A stretch of DNA of 23,944 nucleotides from a virus. Shown one piece after another: positions 1-15,422 of the stretch. The notes beneath the pieces were generated by a model that was not told the DNA's origin, did not search any database, and saw only the letters and a program-made list of their open reading frames with translations. Both the position numbers and the translations under genes were made by a program. The DNA lies in IMG/VR virus record IMGVR_UViG_3300003885_000042, positions 1 to 23,944 of that record; one strand, written 5' to 3'. Position 1 is the stretch's first letter. Every line of letters begins with the position of its first letter.

Positions 1-806
1 ATCTGATCATTATTGAGCAGAACAAGGGCCTCGGGAGCGGTCGAGCCAGTGAGTTCCTGTTTCTTCAGATTGGCAGGATCAAGGCCCTCGTATTGGTTCA
101 GCACCTCCATGGCAGTAGCCAGGGCGACGGGAGCGTTCGGTAGCGTTTTGTACAAGCGACGGAGGACCGCCTTCTTCCACCCTTCCGTCCAGAGTTTGTC
201 GGGATGCCACATTATAGAGTTCGGCATCTCTGACATATTCCGTATTCGCTGGACGATCTCGCGTGGCATGTGTTCTGACAGATGATCCCCATGCGATGTC
301 TTCGCCACTGCGAACACCTCGACGGCGTTATTCTCGATCTGCTGATCGTGCGAAGTATTGAGACGGTACTCGACATCGTGATGCGGACCGAGGTAGCCGA
401 ACTCATCGTTCTTGAACACCACCTCAGCACGGGCGAAACGGACGGCGCCAGAGGCAACCGGGATATGGATCAGGCCACGGTAGGACGGCGAGGCATAGGC
501 AAACGATGGGACCTCCTTGTACTTGTCCCAGGATTCGCCGTCTTTCTTCTTCCGCATCTTGCGCGGAATGATGTAGCAATGACCGACCGTCGGGTTCAGC
601 GTTAGGCCCATCGAGGCAGCCTGCAGCATCGCGTCGTAGATTGACTCCGGGGTACATTCCCGCAGCTTCGGCGTCCGCTTAAGCAGAGACAGAACGTGCA
701 GCTTCTCCTGAGCGAACTTCAACTCCTTGTCGGTACGAACCCCAGAGAACCGGCGGCTGGCCTGCTGGATCGCTTCGTCGATCGTCGTGATTTTATTATT
801 TGCCAT
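1..806 (-). CDS. recT: RecT-family single-strand annealing protein (partial, runs off the window)
   Basis: The reading frame is open for 268 codons from an ATG at 806 to the window edge, so the C-terminus is missing. RecT proteins bind ssDNA and anneal homologous strands in phage recombination, usually with a partner exonuclease. The family signature is seen at about residues 57-85: SIYDAMLQAASMGLTLNP followed by a CYIIPR strand. Further on come YRGLIHI and a W-x-EGWKKAVLRRLYK helix, both typical of the family. The start has a good GAGGAAA ribosome site and overlaps the preceding gene by 11 bases. It is the last visible gene of the leftward operon; a recombination exonuclease may lie just outside. 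Confidence in the family is high. Confidence 0.9.
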   Translation of the reverse strand, partial: MANNKITTIDEAIQQASRRFSGVRTDKELKFAQEKLHVLSLLKRTPKLRECTPESIYDAMLQAASMGLTLNPTVGHCYIIPRKMRKKKDGESWDKYKEVPSFAYASPSYRGLIHIPVASGAVRFARAEVVFKNDEFGYLGPHHDVEYRLNTSHDQQIENNAVEVFAVAKTSHGDHLSEHMPREIVQRIRNMSEMPNSIMWHPDKLWTEGWKKAVLRRLYKTLPNAPVALATAMEVLNQYEGLDPANLKKQELTGSTAPEALVLLNNDQ

Positions 807-1020
807 GGTTAGATTTCCTCGTGCTTTTAGCCTTCGCTCGGACTTCCAGGAGCGAGACGATCAAGCTGTCAACCTCATTACAATCAATAGAGATCACCTT
901 CTTCCCTTGGTTGATCTCGTAATAATGTTTCGTTACGAAATTGAACCGCACCGTCTGCTCGGCATATTTCCCCCAAGCCTTCCAGACGCACCTGCGTTCG
1001 CGTTTTAATTTTTCAGCCAT
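796..1020 (-). CDS. small hypothetical phage protein (74 aa)
   Basis: A 74-residue protein, lysine- and arginine-rich at both ends, beginning MAEKLKRERR and ending in a basic tail (RAKAKSTRKS). No signal peptide or membrane segment is seen and I do not recognise the family. The start is supported by a strong GGAGGAG site a few bases upstream. Its leader lies just 3' of the cleavage site of the hammerhead ribozyme at 1044-1099, so it would be the first gene on the RNA fragment released by self-cleavage. The 3' end overlaps the recT start by 11 bases, which suggests translational coupling to recT. A role in recombination is inferred only from position. Confidence 0.75.
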   Translation of the reverse strand: MAEKLKRERRCVWKAWGKYAEQTVRFNFVTKHYYEINQGKKVISIDCNEVDSLIVSLLEVRAKAKSTRKSNHGK

Positions 1021-1043
1021 TGAACTCCTCCAATGTTTAGTTT

Positions 1044-1099
1044 GACCGCGACCGGGAGTCCCTTCCCGGTTTCGTCCAGTCAGGACTCATCAGGCAGCC
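1044..1099 (-). ncRNA. type I hammerhead self-cleaving ribozyme (copy 1)
   Basis: On the minus strand the core CTGATGA (1093-1087) is followed by stem II GTCC/GGAC with loop TGACT, then GAAA (1073-1070), then stem III ACCGGGA/TCCCGGT with a 6-nt loop, then the cleavage triplet GTC ending at 1050. Stem I is open-ended: GGCTGC (1099-1094) pairs with GCGGTC (1049-1044), six pairs of which two are G-U. Every invariant core nucleotide of the hammerhead is present. Predicted cleavage is between 1050 and 1049. The TGA in the core (1092-1090) is also the stop codon of the DUF932 gene. The 3' product starts 30 bases before the ATG of the 74-aa gene and carries its ribosome site. Confidence 0.93.
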
Positions 1100-2175
1100 T
1101 GTGAAATCTCCTGCCATTGATGCCGCGGCAGCTCCAGGATCGAGCCACCGAGACGCTCAAAGTCGGTCGCACGATCATAGTCGTCGACGTCCTGTGAGAA
1201 CCGCGTGACAGCGTTCACCAGACCGAACTGACTCAGATCAGCACCTTCGATAAGATGGCGCAGCACACCGGACCGCTCACCATCTGTGAGGCCAAACCGC
1301 TTCTGCATCACCTCGATAGCAGCAACCGGATCACCATCGATCAGATTGGTCGTGGAGTCAGACATGCGACGAACGATCTCCTCGAACTTCACCTTATTAA
1401 GCGAGCCACGAACGACGTCCTGAACCTTCAGCCAGAAGGCGCGGTCATCGGCGCGAAGGGTCTCGTCGCGGAACATCTCGGCGACGGACTCACCGCCATC
1501 AGCGATGCGACCGACATGGTGCCGGGACATCGAATGGTCGGCGGCGATCATGCCGTTCAGGCAGACCAGGCGGTACACCAGAGGCTCGACCTTCAGCGCA
1601 CCATTGCCGATCTCGGAGTTGGTAATCACGATCCCTGACTGCACCGGGTCGTCTTTTTTGACCTCCATCTCCAGCTTCGGAAACAGCGCCTTGATGTACA
1701 TGCGCGAATCCGTGATCTCGGTCGAGACGATCTGGATGCCATCGGCCTCCTGCAGCACCGGAAGGACAGCCTCAGCAAGATCGAAGTTATCCAGAGTGCG
1801 GTAGCGATCAGACAAGAAGGCACGAGCATTACCATCCAGGGTGCGGACCATGCGGCGTTCCGGCTTGTTCTCGAACCAGTGCTGGACGTTGTTCACCAGA
1901 AGCTCTGGTGCATCGGTGATCATCCGGTCATAGTATTTCTGGGGGATGCCGACACGCTGCGCGATCTGGCGGTGAGTGTTGCTGGCCATATCGAAATAGC
2001 CCTGACCATTAACACGAAGGCGCCACTCTTCATGAGTAGCAGCGCTGCTATTCTCATGTTCACAATTAGGGCGATGGATCTCCAGCTGGCGAGTATCAGC
2101 AATAAAGTCGCGCTTCGACTTCTGCTGGCGCTCAAGTTCAACAGCCAGATCGGTTAGTGATTTTCCTGATTTCAT
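1090..2175 (-). CDS. DUF932 family phage/plasmid-like protein
   Basis: A 361-residue protein matching the DUF932 (phage/plasmid-like, TIGR03299-type) pattern: RTLDGNARAFLSDRYRTLDN at about 110-130, then SGIVITNSEIGNGALKVEPL and YRLVCLNGMI near 180-210, all conserved in the family. The biochemical role is not settled; these genes often sit beside ssDNA-annealing or nuclease genes on phages and plasmids, as here beside recT. The ATG has an AGGAG site (about 2180-2185) after a possible attenuator. The stop codon is built into the catalytic core of a hammerhead ribozyme, and the last two alanine codons form part of its stem I. No missing domain is apparent. Confidence 0.88.
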   Translation of the reverse strand: MKSGKSLTDLAVELERQQKSKRDFIADTRQLEIHRPNCEHENSSAATHEEWRLRVNGQGYFDMASNTHRQIAQRVGIPQKYYDRMITDAPELLVNNVQHWFENKPERRMVRTLDGNARAFLSDRYRTLDNFDLAEAVLPVLQEADGIQIVSTEITDSRMYIKALFPKLEMEVKKDDPVQSGIVITNSEIGNGALKVEPLVYRLVCLNGMIAADHSMSRHHVGRIADGGESVAEMFRDETLRADDRAFWLKVQDVVRGSLNKVKFEEIVRRMSDSTTNLIDGDPVAAIEVMQKRFGLTDGERSGVLRHLIEGADLSQFGLVNAVTRFSQDVDDYDRATDFERLGGSILELPRHQWQEISQAA

Positions 2176-2243: not shown

Positions 2244-2561
2244 TACGGAACGGACCAACTCATAATCGTGCATCGACTCAATATCGATGGCCTTCTCATG
2301 CTTGCCGTCGGGATCCAGATCAGAGCGCAGAACACTCCACCCATGATCGACGCACCAATAATTCTCGTTAGCATCGTAATCGAAGGCTCGGTAAGTATTG
2401 GGTCCGGCAGGACGAACCCGGACAACCTCATAGGCCACACCATTACGATGAGACCAGATGGTTTTTCCATCATCGTCGGTAAACCCGCTGCAGTGATCTC
2501 CAATATATTTCAACCGGGTCCCAGCAGACCATGGCGCTTCTTGTGGGATAGGGCGATCCAT
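2232..2561 (-). CDS. hypothetical phage protein (109 aa)
   Basis: A 109-residue acidic-to-neutral protein with a compact beta-rich look: GTRLKYIGDHCSGFTDDDGK, then VAYEVVRVRPAG and WCVDHGWSVL. The central pattern resembles small phage SH3-like or WW-like folds, but I do not recognise the family. The ATG at 2561 overlaps the stop of the preceding gene (TGATG); a GTG one codon upstream (2564) is also possible, but the GGAGGT site is better spaced for the ATG. It belongs to the middle segment of the leftward operon, between the two hammerhead ribozymes. Function unknown. Confidence 0.72.
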   Translation of the reverse strand: MDRPIPQEAPWSAGTRLKYIGDHCSGFTDDDGKTIWSHRNGVAYEVVRVRPAGPNTYRAFDYDANENYWCVDHGWSVLRSDLDPDGKHEKAIDIESMHDYELVRSVRRA

Positions 2562-2824
2562 CACGCACCTCCAGACCGACCAGTATCTTTCGCAAAACGA
2601 TCCCAGAGGAACCGTTCAGCAGCAACATGATCAGCGAAGCTTTGGCTCTCGTTGGAGACAGTGACGATGTATCCGGCGCCACCATCTTCTTCGATATACC
2701 CCGGCTCGTAAGTGTATCCGCCAGTGTTTAATGGGATTGAGTCATCGCCGGTGGCAGCAGATAGATCGTCATGATACTGACGAGTCTGTGCCCATTTTAG
2801 AAAATTGTTATCTTCTTTTGTCAT
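2561..2824 (-). CDS. hypothetical phage protein (87 aa)
   Basis: An 87-residue protein starting MTKEDNNFLKWAQTRQY. The middle, GYIEEDGGAGYIVTVSNESQSFADHVAAERFLWDRF in outline, looks like one beta hairpin and a helix; no catalytic motif is seen. A strong AAAGGAGGG site precedes the ATG. Its leader begins at the predicted cleavage site of the hammerhead at 2846-2900, 26 bases before the start codon, so it is the first gene of the second predicted RNA fragment. It is coupled to the 109-aa gene by a TGATG overlap. Family not recognised. Confidence 0.72.
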   Translation of the reverse strand: MTKEDNNFLKWAQTRQYHDDLSAATGDDSIPLNTGGYTYEPGYIEEDGGAGYIVTVSNESQSFADHVAAERFLWDRFAKDTGRSGGA

Positions 2825-2845
2825 GGTTCCCTCCTTTTTTTAGTT

Positions 2846-2900
2846 ACCGTGACCGAGCCATCGCTCGGTTTCGTCCGCACCACCGGACTCATCAGACGGC
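2846..2900 (-). ncRNA. type I hammerhead self-cleaving ribozyme (copy 2)
   Basis: On the minus strand: core CTGATGA (2895-2889), stem II GTCCG/CGGAC with loop GTGGTG, GAAA (2873-2870), stem III ACCGAG/CTCGGT with a 6-nt loop, and the cleavage triplet GTC ending at 2851. Stem I is open-ended and pairs GCCGT (2900-2896) with ACGGT (2850-2846), five pairs. All conserved core bases are present and stem and loop sequences differ from copy 1 while pairing is kept, which is covariation within one genome. Predicted cleavage is between 2851 and 2850. The core TGA at 2894-2892 is also the stop codon of the 155-aa gene. Confidence 0.93.
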
Positions 2901-3359
2901 GATAGTTTCGTTTAAAATCTCACCCAACTGGTCGCCATATTTATGTGCCAGCGCCTCTTTCACTTTGGCGCAATAAGGCAGATCAAGCTTCCGCCAATCG
3001 TGCAGATGATCACCTTTCAGTTTGAACATGACAGCCTTTTTACATTTGCGCTTTGCCCAACGGACATGCTCGTAATCATCGACCAGACTGGAAACGAAGC
3101 AATCGCCATCAGGGATATAGGTGTGCTCTTCATTGCCACCGAAGGTCTCGGTCACGGCTTCCAGCTTGACGACCATCGCATCGAAACGATCGCGCTCTTC
3201 ATTGGAGACGAAGTCGAAGTAATATTCACCGCCATGCGCCTCGTCGAGAACACTTGCGACCTTCTTCCCGTCTCGATATAGATTCGCACTGAAACCGTAA
3301 CCGTCATGACCCTCAAAGCTCTTAACATTTTTTACGGCGTATTTTTCTGTGTTTTTCAT
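2892..3359 (-). CDS. hypothetical phage early protein (155 aa)
   Basis: A 155-residue charged soluble protein. It has a beta-rich N-terminal half (KVASVLDEAHGGEYYFDF, then a helix ERDRFDAMVVKLEAV) and a basic C-terminal half (WAKRKCKKAVMFKLKGD). No known motif is recognised. The ATG lies behind a CCGGAGGGA ribosome site inside a 23-base leader that is duplicated in front of the neighbouring 81-aa gene. It is the second gene of the leftward operon. Its final Ala-Val codons and stop codon are part of hammerhead ribozyme copy 2, so ribosomes finishing this gene would sit on the ribozyme core. Confidence 0.75.
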   Translation of the reverse strand: MKNTEKYAVKNVKSFEGHDGYGFSANLYRDGKKVASVLDEAHGGEYYFDFVSNEERDRFDAMVVKLEAVTETFGGNEEHTYIPDGDCFVSSLVDDYEHVRWAKRKCKKAVMFKLKGDHLHDWRKLDLPYCAKVKEALAHKYGDQLGEILNETIAV

Positions 3360-3657: not shown

Positions 3658-3686
3658 TTGACATTTCCTAAGCACGCCTCTAATAT
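3658..3686 (+). promoter_or_regulatory. rightward promoter for the regulator gene, overlapping the leftward promoter
   Basis: TTGACA (3658-3663, perfect -35) and TAATAT (3681-3686) are separated by 17 bases. Transcription would start near 3693, 35 bases before the ATG at 3728. The -10 boxes of the two divergent promoters overlap, so two polymerases could not occupy both at once. The shared region contains a dyad (TCTA...TAGA and TTGAC...GTCAA) centred on 3684, a likely operator. Confidence 0.65.
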
Positions 3687-3710
3687 AGACGTGTCGAAGC
3701 AAGAAGTCAA
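3682..3710 (-). promoter_or_regulatory. leftward sigma70-type early promoter
   Basis: Reading the minus strand, TTGACT (3710-3705) and TATATT (3687-3682) are separated by 17 bases. Transcription would start near 3675, about 47 bases before the start codon of the 81-aa gene. The match to consensus is strong (5/6 and 5/6). Its -10 box overlaps that of the rightward promoter on the other strand. Confidence 0.75.
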
Positions 3711-14784: not shown

Positions 14785-14875
14785 GCGATGTGAGACAAAG
14801 ATATGCGATGTGCCCCATGGTAACCGCTGGTAACCGCTGGTAACCACCGGTAAAGCGATGTAGGCCATGGTAAGA
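14785..14875 (+). repeat. 10-bp-phased intergenic direct-repeat array
   Basis: GGTAA begins at 14819, 14829, 14839, 14849 and 14869, all in 10-base register; the first two units are identical (GGTAACCGCT). GCGATGT begins at 14785, 14805 and 14855, in its own 10-base register. CCATGG precedes GGTAA twice (14815 and 14865), so a longer unit of about 19 bases, GCGATGT..CCATGGTAA, occurs at 14805 and 14855 with 16 of 19 matches. The stretch 14756-14953 has no gene, and this array is its only clear content. It looks like binding sites for a phage protein: packaging site, origin or operator. Confidence 0.7.
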
Positions 14876-14953
14876 ATGTGCCAAGGGCCACAAACGCTGA
14901 TCATCCCAGGGACTAGACTTCTGCCGCAAAACGTCCGCATAATGGACGCGCGC

Positions 14954-15028
14954 ACGGAGGTGGCGGAATGGTATACGCCCCTCGCCACAATGAGGGAGTT
15001 GCGGGTTCGAGTCCCGTCCTCCGTGCCA
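14954..15028 (+). tRNA. tRNA with leucine-like D arm and abnormal anticodon loop
   Basis: A perfect 7-bp acceptor stem (ACGGAGG, 14954-14960, with CCTCCGT, 15018-15024), discriminator G and encoded CCA (15026-15028). D arm GCG...CGC with loop GAATGGTATA is leucine-like. T arm GCGGG/CCCGT has loop TTCGAGT. The anticodon stem CCCTC/GAGGG is perfect but leaves an 8-base loop GCCACAAT with no U33, or a 6-base loop if G-T pairs. The variable loop is 4 bases, unlike class II leucine tRNAs. The amino acid therefore cannot be assigned; it may be degenerate or non-canonical. Confidence 0.7.
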
Positions 15029-15077
15029 ACACAAGTCAGCGCATTAGCGCATCACAGTCACAAAAAGGAGAACGTCA

Positions 15078-15422
15078 ATGTCAGCAGTAGAAATCAAGAC
15101 CATCATCCCTTTGTACGAAGCCCGCGTCATCAGCTACAAACAACCAAACAGCGAACCACGAGAGATGCGGGTCGCAGAGGGGTGGGCAGCAATCATCAAG
15201 AGCGGGCCGAATCCAGAAGACATAGATTCGGCAACCATCTATTACGATCATCACGGTTTATACAGGGGATTCGTTGATATGGATTTGGGAAGTTTTGAAT
15301 TCATCTGGTCACCACACACAGACATAAACCCAGAGCAGAACGAGAAGGACGTCTCATGGGACATGGACGACGAGTTCGTGTTCCTGTTTTTGGAGTACCT
15401 GAACTACAAACAAACGAGGTAA
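15078..15422 (+). CDS. hypothetical phage protein (114 aa)
   Basis: A 114-residue acidic protein starting MSAVEIKTIIPLYEARVISY with an AAAGGAGAA site 8 bases upstream. It has a beta-rich first half and an acidic, aromatic end (WDMDDEFVFLFLEYLNY). It is the first gene after the tRNA, about 50 bases downstream. No family or motif is recognised. Confidence 0.65.
   Translation: MSAVEIKTIIPLYEARVISYKQPNSEPREMRVAEGWAAIIKSGPNPEDIDSATIYYDHHGLYRGFVDMDLGSFEFIWSPHTDINPEQNEKDVSWDMDDEFVFLFLEYLNYKQTR

Follow-up and report, generated by a model that had tools for sequence, protein, structure and literature searches.

What could self-cleaving RNAs be doing between the genes of a phage operon? The question is raised by the IMG/VR record IMGVR_UViG_3300003885_000042, of which a stretch of 23,944 nucleotides (positions 1 to 23,944, here called the window) was analysed. 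The record is a fragment of a tailed phage, with genes for terminase, portal, head morphogenesis, a DnaB-like helicase and methyltransferases. An earlier note on this DNA had placed a hammerhead ribozyme between a DUF932 gene and the gene next to recT. The window holds two such ribozymes, A and B, which lie 1.8 kb apart on the minus strand and flank genes of one phage operon. This operon runs leftward in the order 93-aa ORF, 155-aa ORF, ribozyme B, 87-aa ORF, 109-aa ORF, DUF932, ribozyme A, 74-aa ORF and recT.

All these genes are read from the minus strand. The 155-aa ORF upstream of ribozyme B (2892..3359) has a weak match to phrog_17767, and the first gene past the predicted cut in B, the 87-aa ORF (2561..2824), has no PHROG match. 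Upstream of ribozyme A lies the gene for a DUF932 protein of 361 aa (1090..2175; PF06067, E 9.9e-13; phrog_1362, E 4.9e-50). The first gene past the predicted cut in A is the 74-aa ORF (796..1020), without family match in Pfam or PHROG, and the second is recT (3..806), which encodes an ssDNA-annealing protein (Pfam PF03837, E 4.4e-17; phrog_148, E 2.1e-33) and extends beyond the end of the record. A consensus scan yielded a candidate sigma-70-like operon promoter at 3682..3710 (minus strand; TTGACT and TATATT with a 17-nt spacer), a weak match of 10/12, and promoter-like sites are no commoner in the window than in shuffled sequence.

Ribozyme A (1044..1099, minus strand) is a type I hammerhead by its sequence, by a descriptor of the motif and by a covariance model, R1. 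Read from 1099 down to 1044, it starts with the 5' strand of the open stem I (GGCUGC, 1099-1094), followed by the core sequence CUGAUGA (1093-1087) and by stem II, in which GUCC (1086-1083) and GGAC (1077-1074) form four base pairs around the loop UGACU. After GAA (1073-1071) comes stem III, where ACCGGGA (1070-1064) and UCCCGGU (1057-1051) form seven base pairs, the A15.1-U16.1 pair included, around the loop AGGGAC. The 3' strand of stem I (GCGGUC, 1049-1044) is preceded by C17 at 1050 and completes a helix of six base pairs, two of which are G-U. The elements that had been described before, including the core, the stems and the GUC triplet, are thus all present on this strand at these positions, and hammerhead numbering from the GUC triplet bears out the cut predicted between C1050 and G1049.

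Ribozyme B (2845..2901, minus strand), also of type I, was missed in the earlier note and was found both by the descriptor and by the same covariance search as A. Its stem I consists of GCCGU (2900-2896) and ACGGU (2850-2846), its stem II of GUCCG (2888-2884) and CGGAC (2877-2873), each of five base pairs, and its stem III of ACCGAGC (2869-2863) and GCUCGGU (2858-2852), with seven. The core occupies 2895-2889 and C17 is at 2851, so that the cut is predicted between C2851 and A2850. In both copies the invariant core is complete (CUGAUGA, GAA, A15.1-U16.1 and C17), and the three helices are paired directly beside it, with 6/4/7 base pairs in stems I/II/III of A and 5/5/7 in B. Both have the type I layout, with an open stem I and loop-closed stems II and III. 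An A outside stem I on its 5' side, found in 93 of 133 relatives, is present in copy A and absent in copy B. Fast hammerhead cleavage requires contact of loop II with the region beyond stem I; no pseudoknot that would make this tertiary contact could be made out with confidence in ribozyme A or B. By eye only, GGUGGU in loop II of copy B might form a pseudoknot with ACUAUC, which directly precedes the 5' strand of stem I.

With a permissive type I descriptor of the whole motif, two matches were obtained in the window, while eight were obtained when the entire window was dinucleotide-shuffled 2000 times, or about 0.004 per shuffled window. The core and stem II pattern has an expectation of 0.00 occurrences by chance. 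When this pattern was searched in IMG/VR, at least 119 stretches were found. Among the matches listed, 123 in viral contigs had enough flank, and 115 of these (93%) could be completed to a type I or type III hammerhead; once the flanks had been shuffled, the proportion was 4.6%. Stems I and III were absent from the search pattern, while the descriptor that selected the relatives did require pairing; it served both to choose and to describe them, a choice that does not enter into the comparison with shuffled flanks. A first alignment of mixed lengths (A1), in which stem III was misaligned, was rejected and replaced by another (A2). The covariation score of the relatives' alignment is 0.897, as compared with 0.168 after shuffling and at most 0.13 when the alignment is slid. 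R1 was trained on 31 phage hammerheads, with the window excluded, and 99% of the stem I-III pair cells in its training alignment are standard pairs. In the window it places ribozyme A exactly at 1044-1099 (51.7 bits, E 5.3e-16) and detects ribozyme B with 38.3 bits (E 3.5e-11); no other match exceeds 11.2 bits. Three lines of evidence uphold the assignment of a type I hammerhead to the transcribed strand: the independent covariance model, the strong covariation among relatives and a position in gene gaps that recurs.

The earlier note had named a search with the Rfam models as a check, and here the outcome is divided: neither ribozyme matches at the gathering threshold, relaxed thresholds giving weak matches only, while the independently trained R1 matches ribozyme A at E 5e-16. 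Compared with the model RF00163 (Hammerhead_1), the window copies share the core, the stem order with stem I open and the triplet GUC; they differ in having seven base pairs in stem III, where the model has two. Its gathering score of 34 bits is not reached by ribozyme B (15.7 bits), and for ribozyme A no RF00163 match was listed. The best Rfam match of A is the RAGATH-1-hammerhead RF03152, which resembles the window copies in its type I-like order and long stem III; however, it models a stem II of one base pair and, on the 5' side, an additional hairpin, which is not conserved in the present case. Against its gathering score of 56.3 bits, A has 19.0 and 17.5 bits and B has 15.8. Ten of the loci from the IMG/VR pattern search contain about 40 hammerheads according to the descriptor, of which only three are called by Rfam at gathering. 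Most canonical phage hammerheads thus escape the same search, so the missing match is not a refutation, and the threshold failure reflects the model rather than the ribozyme class. The proposal that a hammerhead without a covariance-model match should be given up would thus be misleading if Rfam were meant.

The placement of these elements relative to genes recurs as well. A comparison set of 133 distinct type I hammerheads was assembled, of which 131 are from viral contigs, among the matches listed, and two from the window. In ribozymes A and B alike, the upstream ORF terminates at the first UGA within CUGAUGA, at 1090..1092 (minus strand) for the DUF932 ORF, as also read from its translation, and at 2892..2894 (minus strand) for the 155-aa ORF; for A, the earlier note had overlooked this. 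Of the hammerheads with an upstream ORF, 65% have its stop between -15 and +1 of the core, compared with 8.8% for randomly chosen sites. No single offset is more frequent than that in which the core's own UGA serves as the stop (19/92), while many other hammerheads have the stop at -3 or at -7 to -9. Of the 36 upstream reading frames that run into the core after 70 or more open codons, 26 are terminated by the core UGA, the remaining 10 being in the two other frames (binomial p 2e-6); counted by contig and with the window excluded, 18 are in the core-UGA frame and 5 and 4 in the others. Downstream, the distance from cut to ATG has a median of 27 nt (133 hammerheads, among the matches listed), and an ORF start is found on the ribozyme strand for 113/133 as opposed to 31/133 on the opposite strand (Fisher p 5e-25). 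In the window, the predicted cuts would leave leaders of 29 nt for A (1021..1049, minus strand; Shine-Dalgarno GGAGG at 1031-1027) and 26 nt for B (2850-2825, minus strand; Shine-Dalgarno GGAGGG at 2834-2829). No shared function or family was found for the neighbouring genes across the phage hammerhead set, which fits the expectation for a processing element. Single viral contigs hold up to nine hammerheads in successive gaps. Type I arrays were seen in L117 (nine copies), L068 and L104 (six each), L095 (five) and L114 (four), many of the copies sitting between successive small genes.

A stop at or in the core, a cut about 27 nt ahead of the next start, a common strand and unrelated neighbours point to operon processing, and self-cleavage of the operon RNA is the likely role of both ribozymes. 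The two hammerheads probably split the leftward operon RNA into independently stable and independently translated segments. Their sequence, fold, position and recurrence are established by the present analysis; that A and B cleave is expected from the hammerhead class to which they belong. Each ribozyme would fold in the polycistronic transcript after the upstream gene has been read through to the core UGA, and would then cut 3' of C17 without the help of a protein. By analogy with hammerheads in general, the upstream message would carry a 2',3'-cyclic phosphate and end in the ribozyme body with the stem II and III hairpins, while the downstream message would begin with a 5'-OH and a leader of 26-29 nt containing the Shine-Dalgarno sequence. 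On the strength of what is generally known of bacterial RNA decay, the folded 3' end may hinder 3' exonucleases and the 5'-OH may allow the downstream message to escape 5'-monophosphate-dependent decay. The resulting segments would consist of the 155-aa ORF and what lies upstream of it; of the 87-aa ORF, the 109-aa ORF and DUF932; and of the 74-aa ORF and recT. After the cuts, the stability and the translation of each segment would become independent. The suggestion that the cut frees recT on a message of its own needs to be amended, as the predicted downstream RNA comprises the 74-aa ORF as well as recT.

As core and stop codon overlap, cleavage could also be gated by the terminating ribosome. 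Such a ribosome would cover stem I and the core and so delay cleavage for as long as the upstream gene is translated, and the ribozyme would be a timer or a sensor of translation instead of cutting constitutively. In favour of this are the core UGA as stop in both window ribozymes and the frame bias among relatives, but this bias also fits a need for any stop that keeps ribosomes off the ribozyme, and many relatives stop at -3 or at -7 to -9 rather than at the core UGA; gating by translation seems rather unlikely. The same doubt applies to its wider form, in which the core UGA of phage hammerheads, used as a stop, would provide a protein-free, translation-coupled switch that times the excision of each cistron, and that would be widespread in phages but absent from annotations because it falls below the Rfam thresholds. 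The fold of ribozyme A would permit yet another kind of control. Whereas the minimum-energy fold of ribozyme B is exactly the hammerhead (-24.7 kcal/mol), for the isolated 56-mer of A an alternative fold is favoured over the hammerhead by 2.0 kcal/mol, owing to possible pairing between GGACUC in loop III and GAGUCC in the core and stem II. The fold predicted for a longer transcript retains stems II and III and loses stem I. An 81-nt stretch folded freely gives z -1.7 and a minimum fold other than the hammerhead, a result that is uninformative for so small a motif. As modelled, the alternative fold allows a switch, in which the pairing of loop III with the core and stem II would be the inactive state and translation, an RNA or a protein would shift the balance. 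A gap as large occurs in about 16% of the 133 relatives. However, the hammerhead is the minimum-energy fold of B and of most relatives, the median gap being 0; 2 kcal/mol is within the error of a model that ignores stabilisation by the core and by tertiary contacts; and A is without a close relative on which conservation could be judged. That ribozyme A is such a switch is very doubtful.

The ribozymes could also be selfish or vestigial motifs of little effect that move between phages or have arisen many times, and for which any slot for a harmless hairpin between genes would do. The relatives of the DUF932 gene, from an alignment query that gave 80 viral loci and 80 genome (prophage) loci with a related gene, are of interest here. 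A hammerhead-like motif occurs in three of the 80 viral loci, each time directly beside that gene: a type I motif before it in L185, a type III motif before it in L130, and a type I-like motif after it in L159 (2918-2976, plus strand), in which CUGACGA is separated from stem II by an additional U and which may be a variant core or inactive. None of the 80 genome (prophage) loci has a convincing hammerhead. With the window counted, about 4 of 81 viral loci have an adjoining motif, so the ribozyme is dispensable for the DUF932 gene. A single-sequence search found no close DUF932 relatives in IMG/VR. In the closest relative, L129 (62% identity), a plain hairpin stands in place of the hammerhead, and L128, a recT relative at 66%, has no hammerhead. 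Nucleotide relatives of the locus were not found in INPHARED, where the main match is a methyltransferase elsewhere. By eye, a strong GC hairpin is seen in the gap downstream of DUF932 in L129, L131, L133, L134 and L138, which are all without hammerhead. To judge from these sequences, the ribozyme seems to come and go beside DUF932, and the structure that replaces it looks like an ordinary intergenic hairpin. Sporadic occurrence, plain GC hairpins in the same gap and variable neighbouring genes would all suit a motif of little use, but compensatory changes in all three stems together with a strict placement at the level of codons indicate selection, and some phage contigs carry up to nine hammerheads in successive gaps; a selfish or vestigial nature is accordingly improbable. 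As to the absence of a gathering match in Rfam, it would also agree with a chance resemblance, or with a simple intergenic hairpin, a terminator or stabiliser without catalysis. Against this stand the rarity of descriptor matches in shuffled windows, the R1 E-values and an invariant core that is complete in both copies. Chance resemblance is refuted by the shuffle counts and the E-values, and the whole of this explanation is hardly credible.

The idea of operon processing by phage hammerheads has precedents. Tandem type I hammerheads flank phage or prophage genes, for example in the ardA region of Agrobacterium tumefaciens, in Azorhizobium caulinodans and in Clostridium scindens; cleavage has been shown for some of them in vitro, for the Agrobacterium set also in E. 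coli, and the splitting of long phage transcripts was already proposed for them in 2011 (Perreault et al. 2011, PMC3088659). The view that hammerheads occur in some phages and are rarely noticed holds for their presence in phages and prophages, but they had already been documented and partly tested (PMC3088659). The window copies resemble the prophage sets of that paper in their canonical core and in their tandem arrangement around single genes or short blocks of a phage operon; they differ in the genes concerned, which here are DUF932, small ORFs and recT. The use of the core UGA as the upstream stop, seen in both window copies, was not found mentioned in the portions of PMC3088659 considered here. 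HDV-like theta ribozymes, which adjoin phage suppressor tRNAs, are likewise a type of small self-cleaving RNA within a phage operon, but they belong to another ribozyme class and their target is tRNA processing (PMC10879173). A review of 2017 regards the role of prokaryotic hammerheads as an open question and notes that their link to phages is a persistent one (PMC6155905). Operon-flanking phage hammerheads as such are therefore already known; what is added here is the second copy, the reason for the Rfam misses and the stop-codon and leader geometry. The record contributes a clean pair of hammerheads and shows that, at the Rfam gathering threshold, most phage hammerheads whose stem III is long go undetected.

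Finally, some minor features of the window can be mentioned. A tRNA-like gene lies at 14954-15028 (plus strand), inside the ORF 14867..15277, with an Rfam tRNA score of 44.7 bits; its amino acid could not be named by ARAGORN. A near-identical leader, CAACCCGGAGGGAATCCAAATG, precedes two successive ORFs of the leftward operon, at 3645-3628 and 3378-3360 (minus strand). The leader after cut A can fold as a hairpin (ACATTGGA / GGAG / TTCAATG; window 1035-1018, minus strand), which contains both the Shine-Dalgarno sequence and the codon at which the 74-aa ORF starts.
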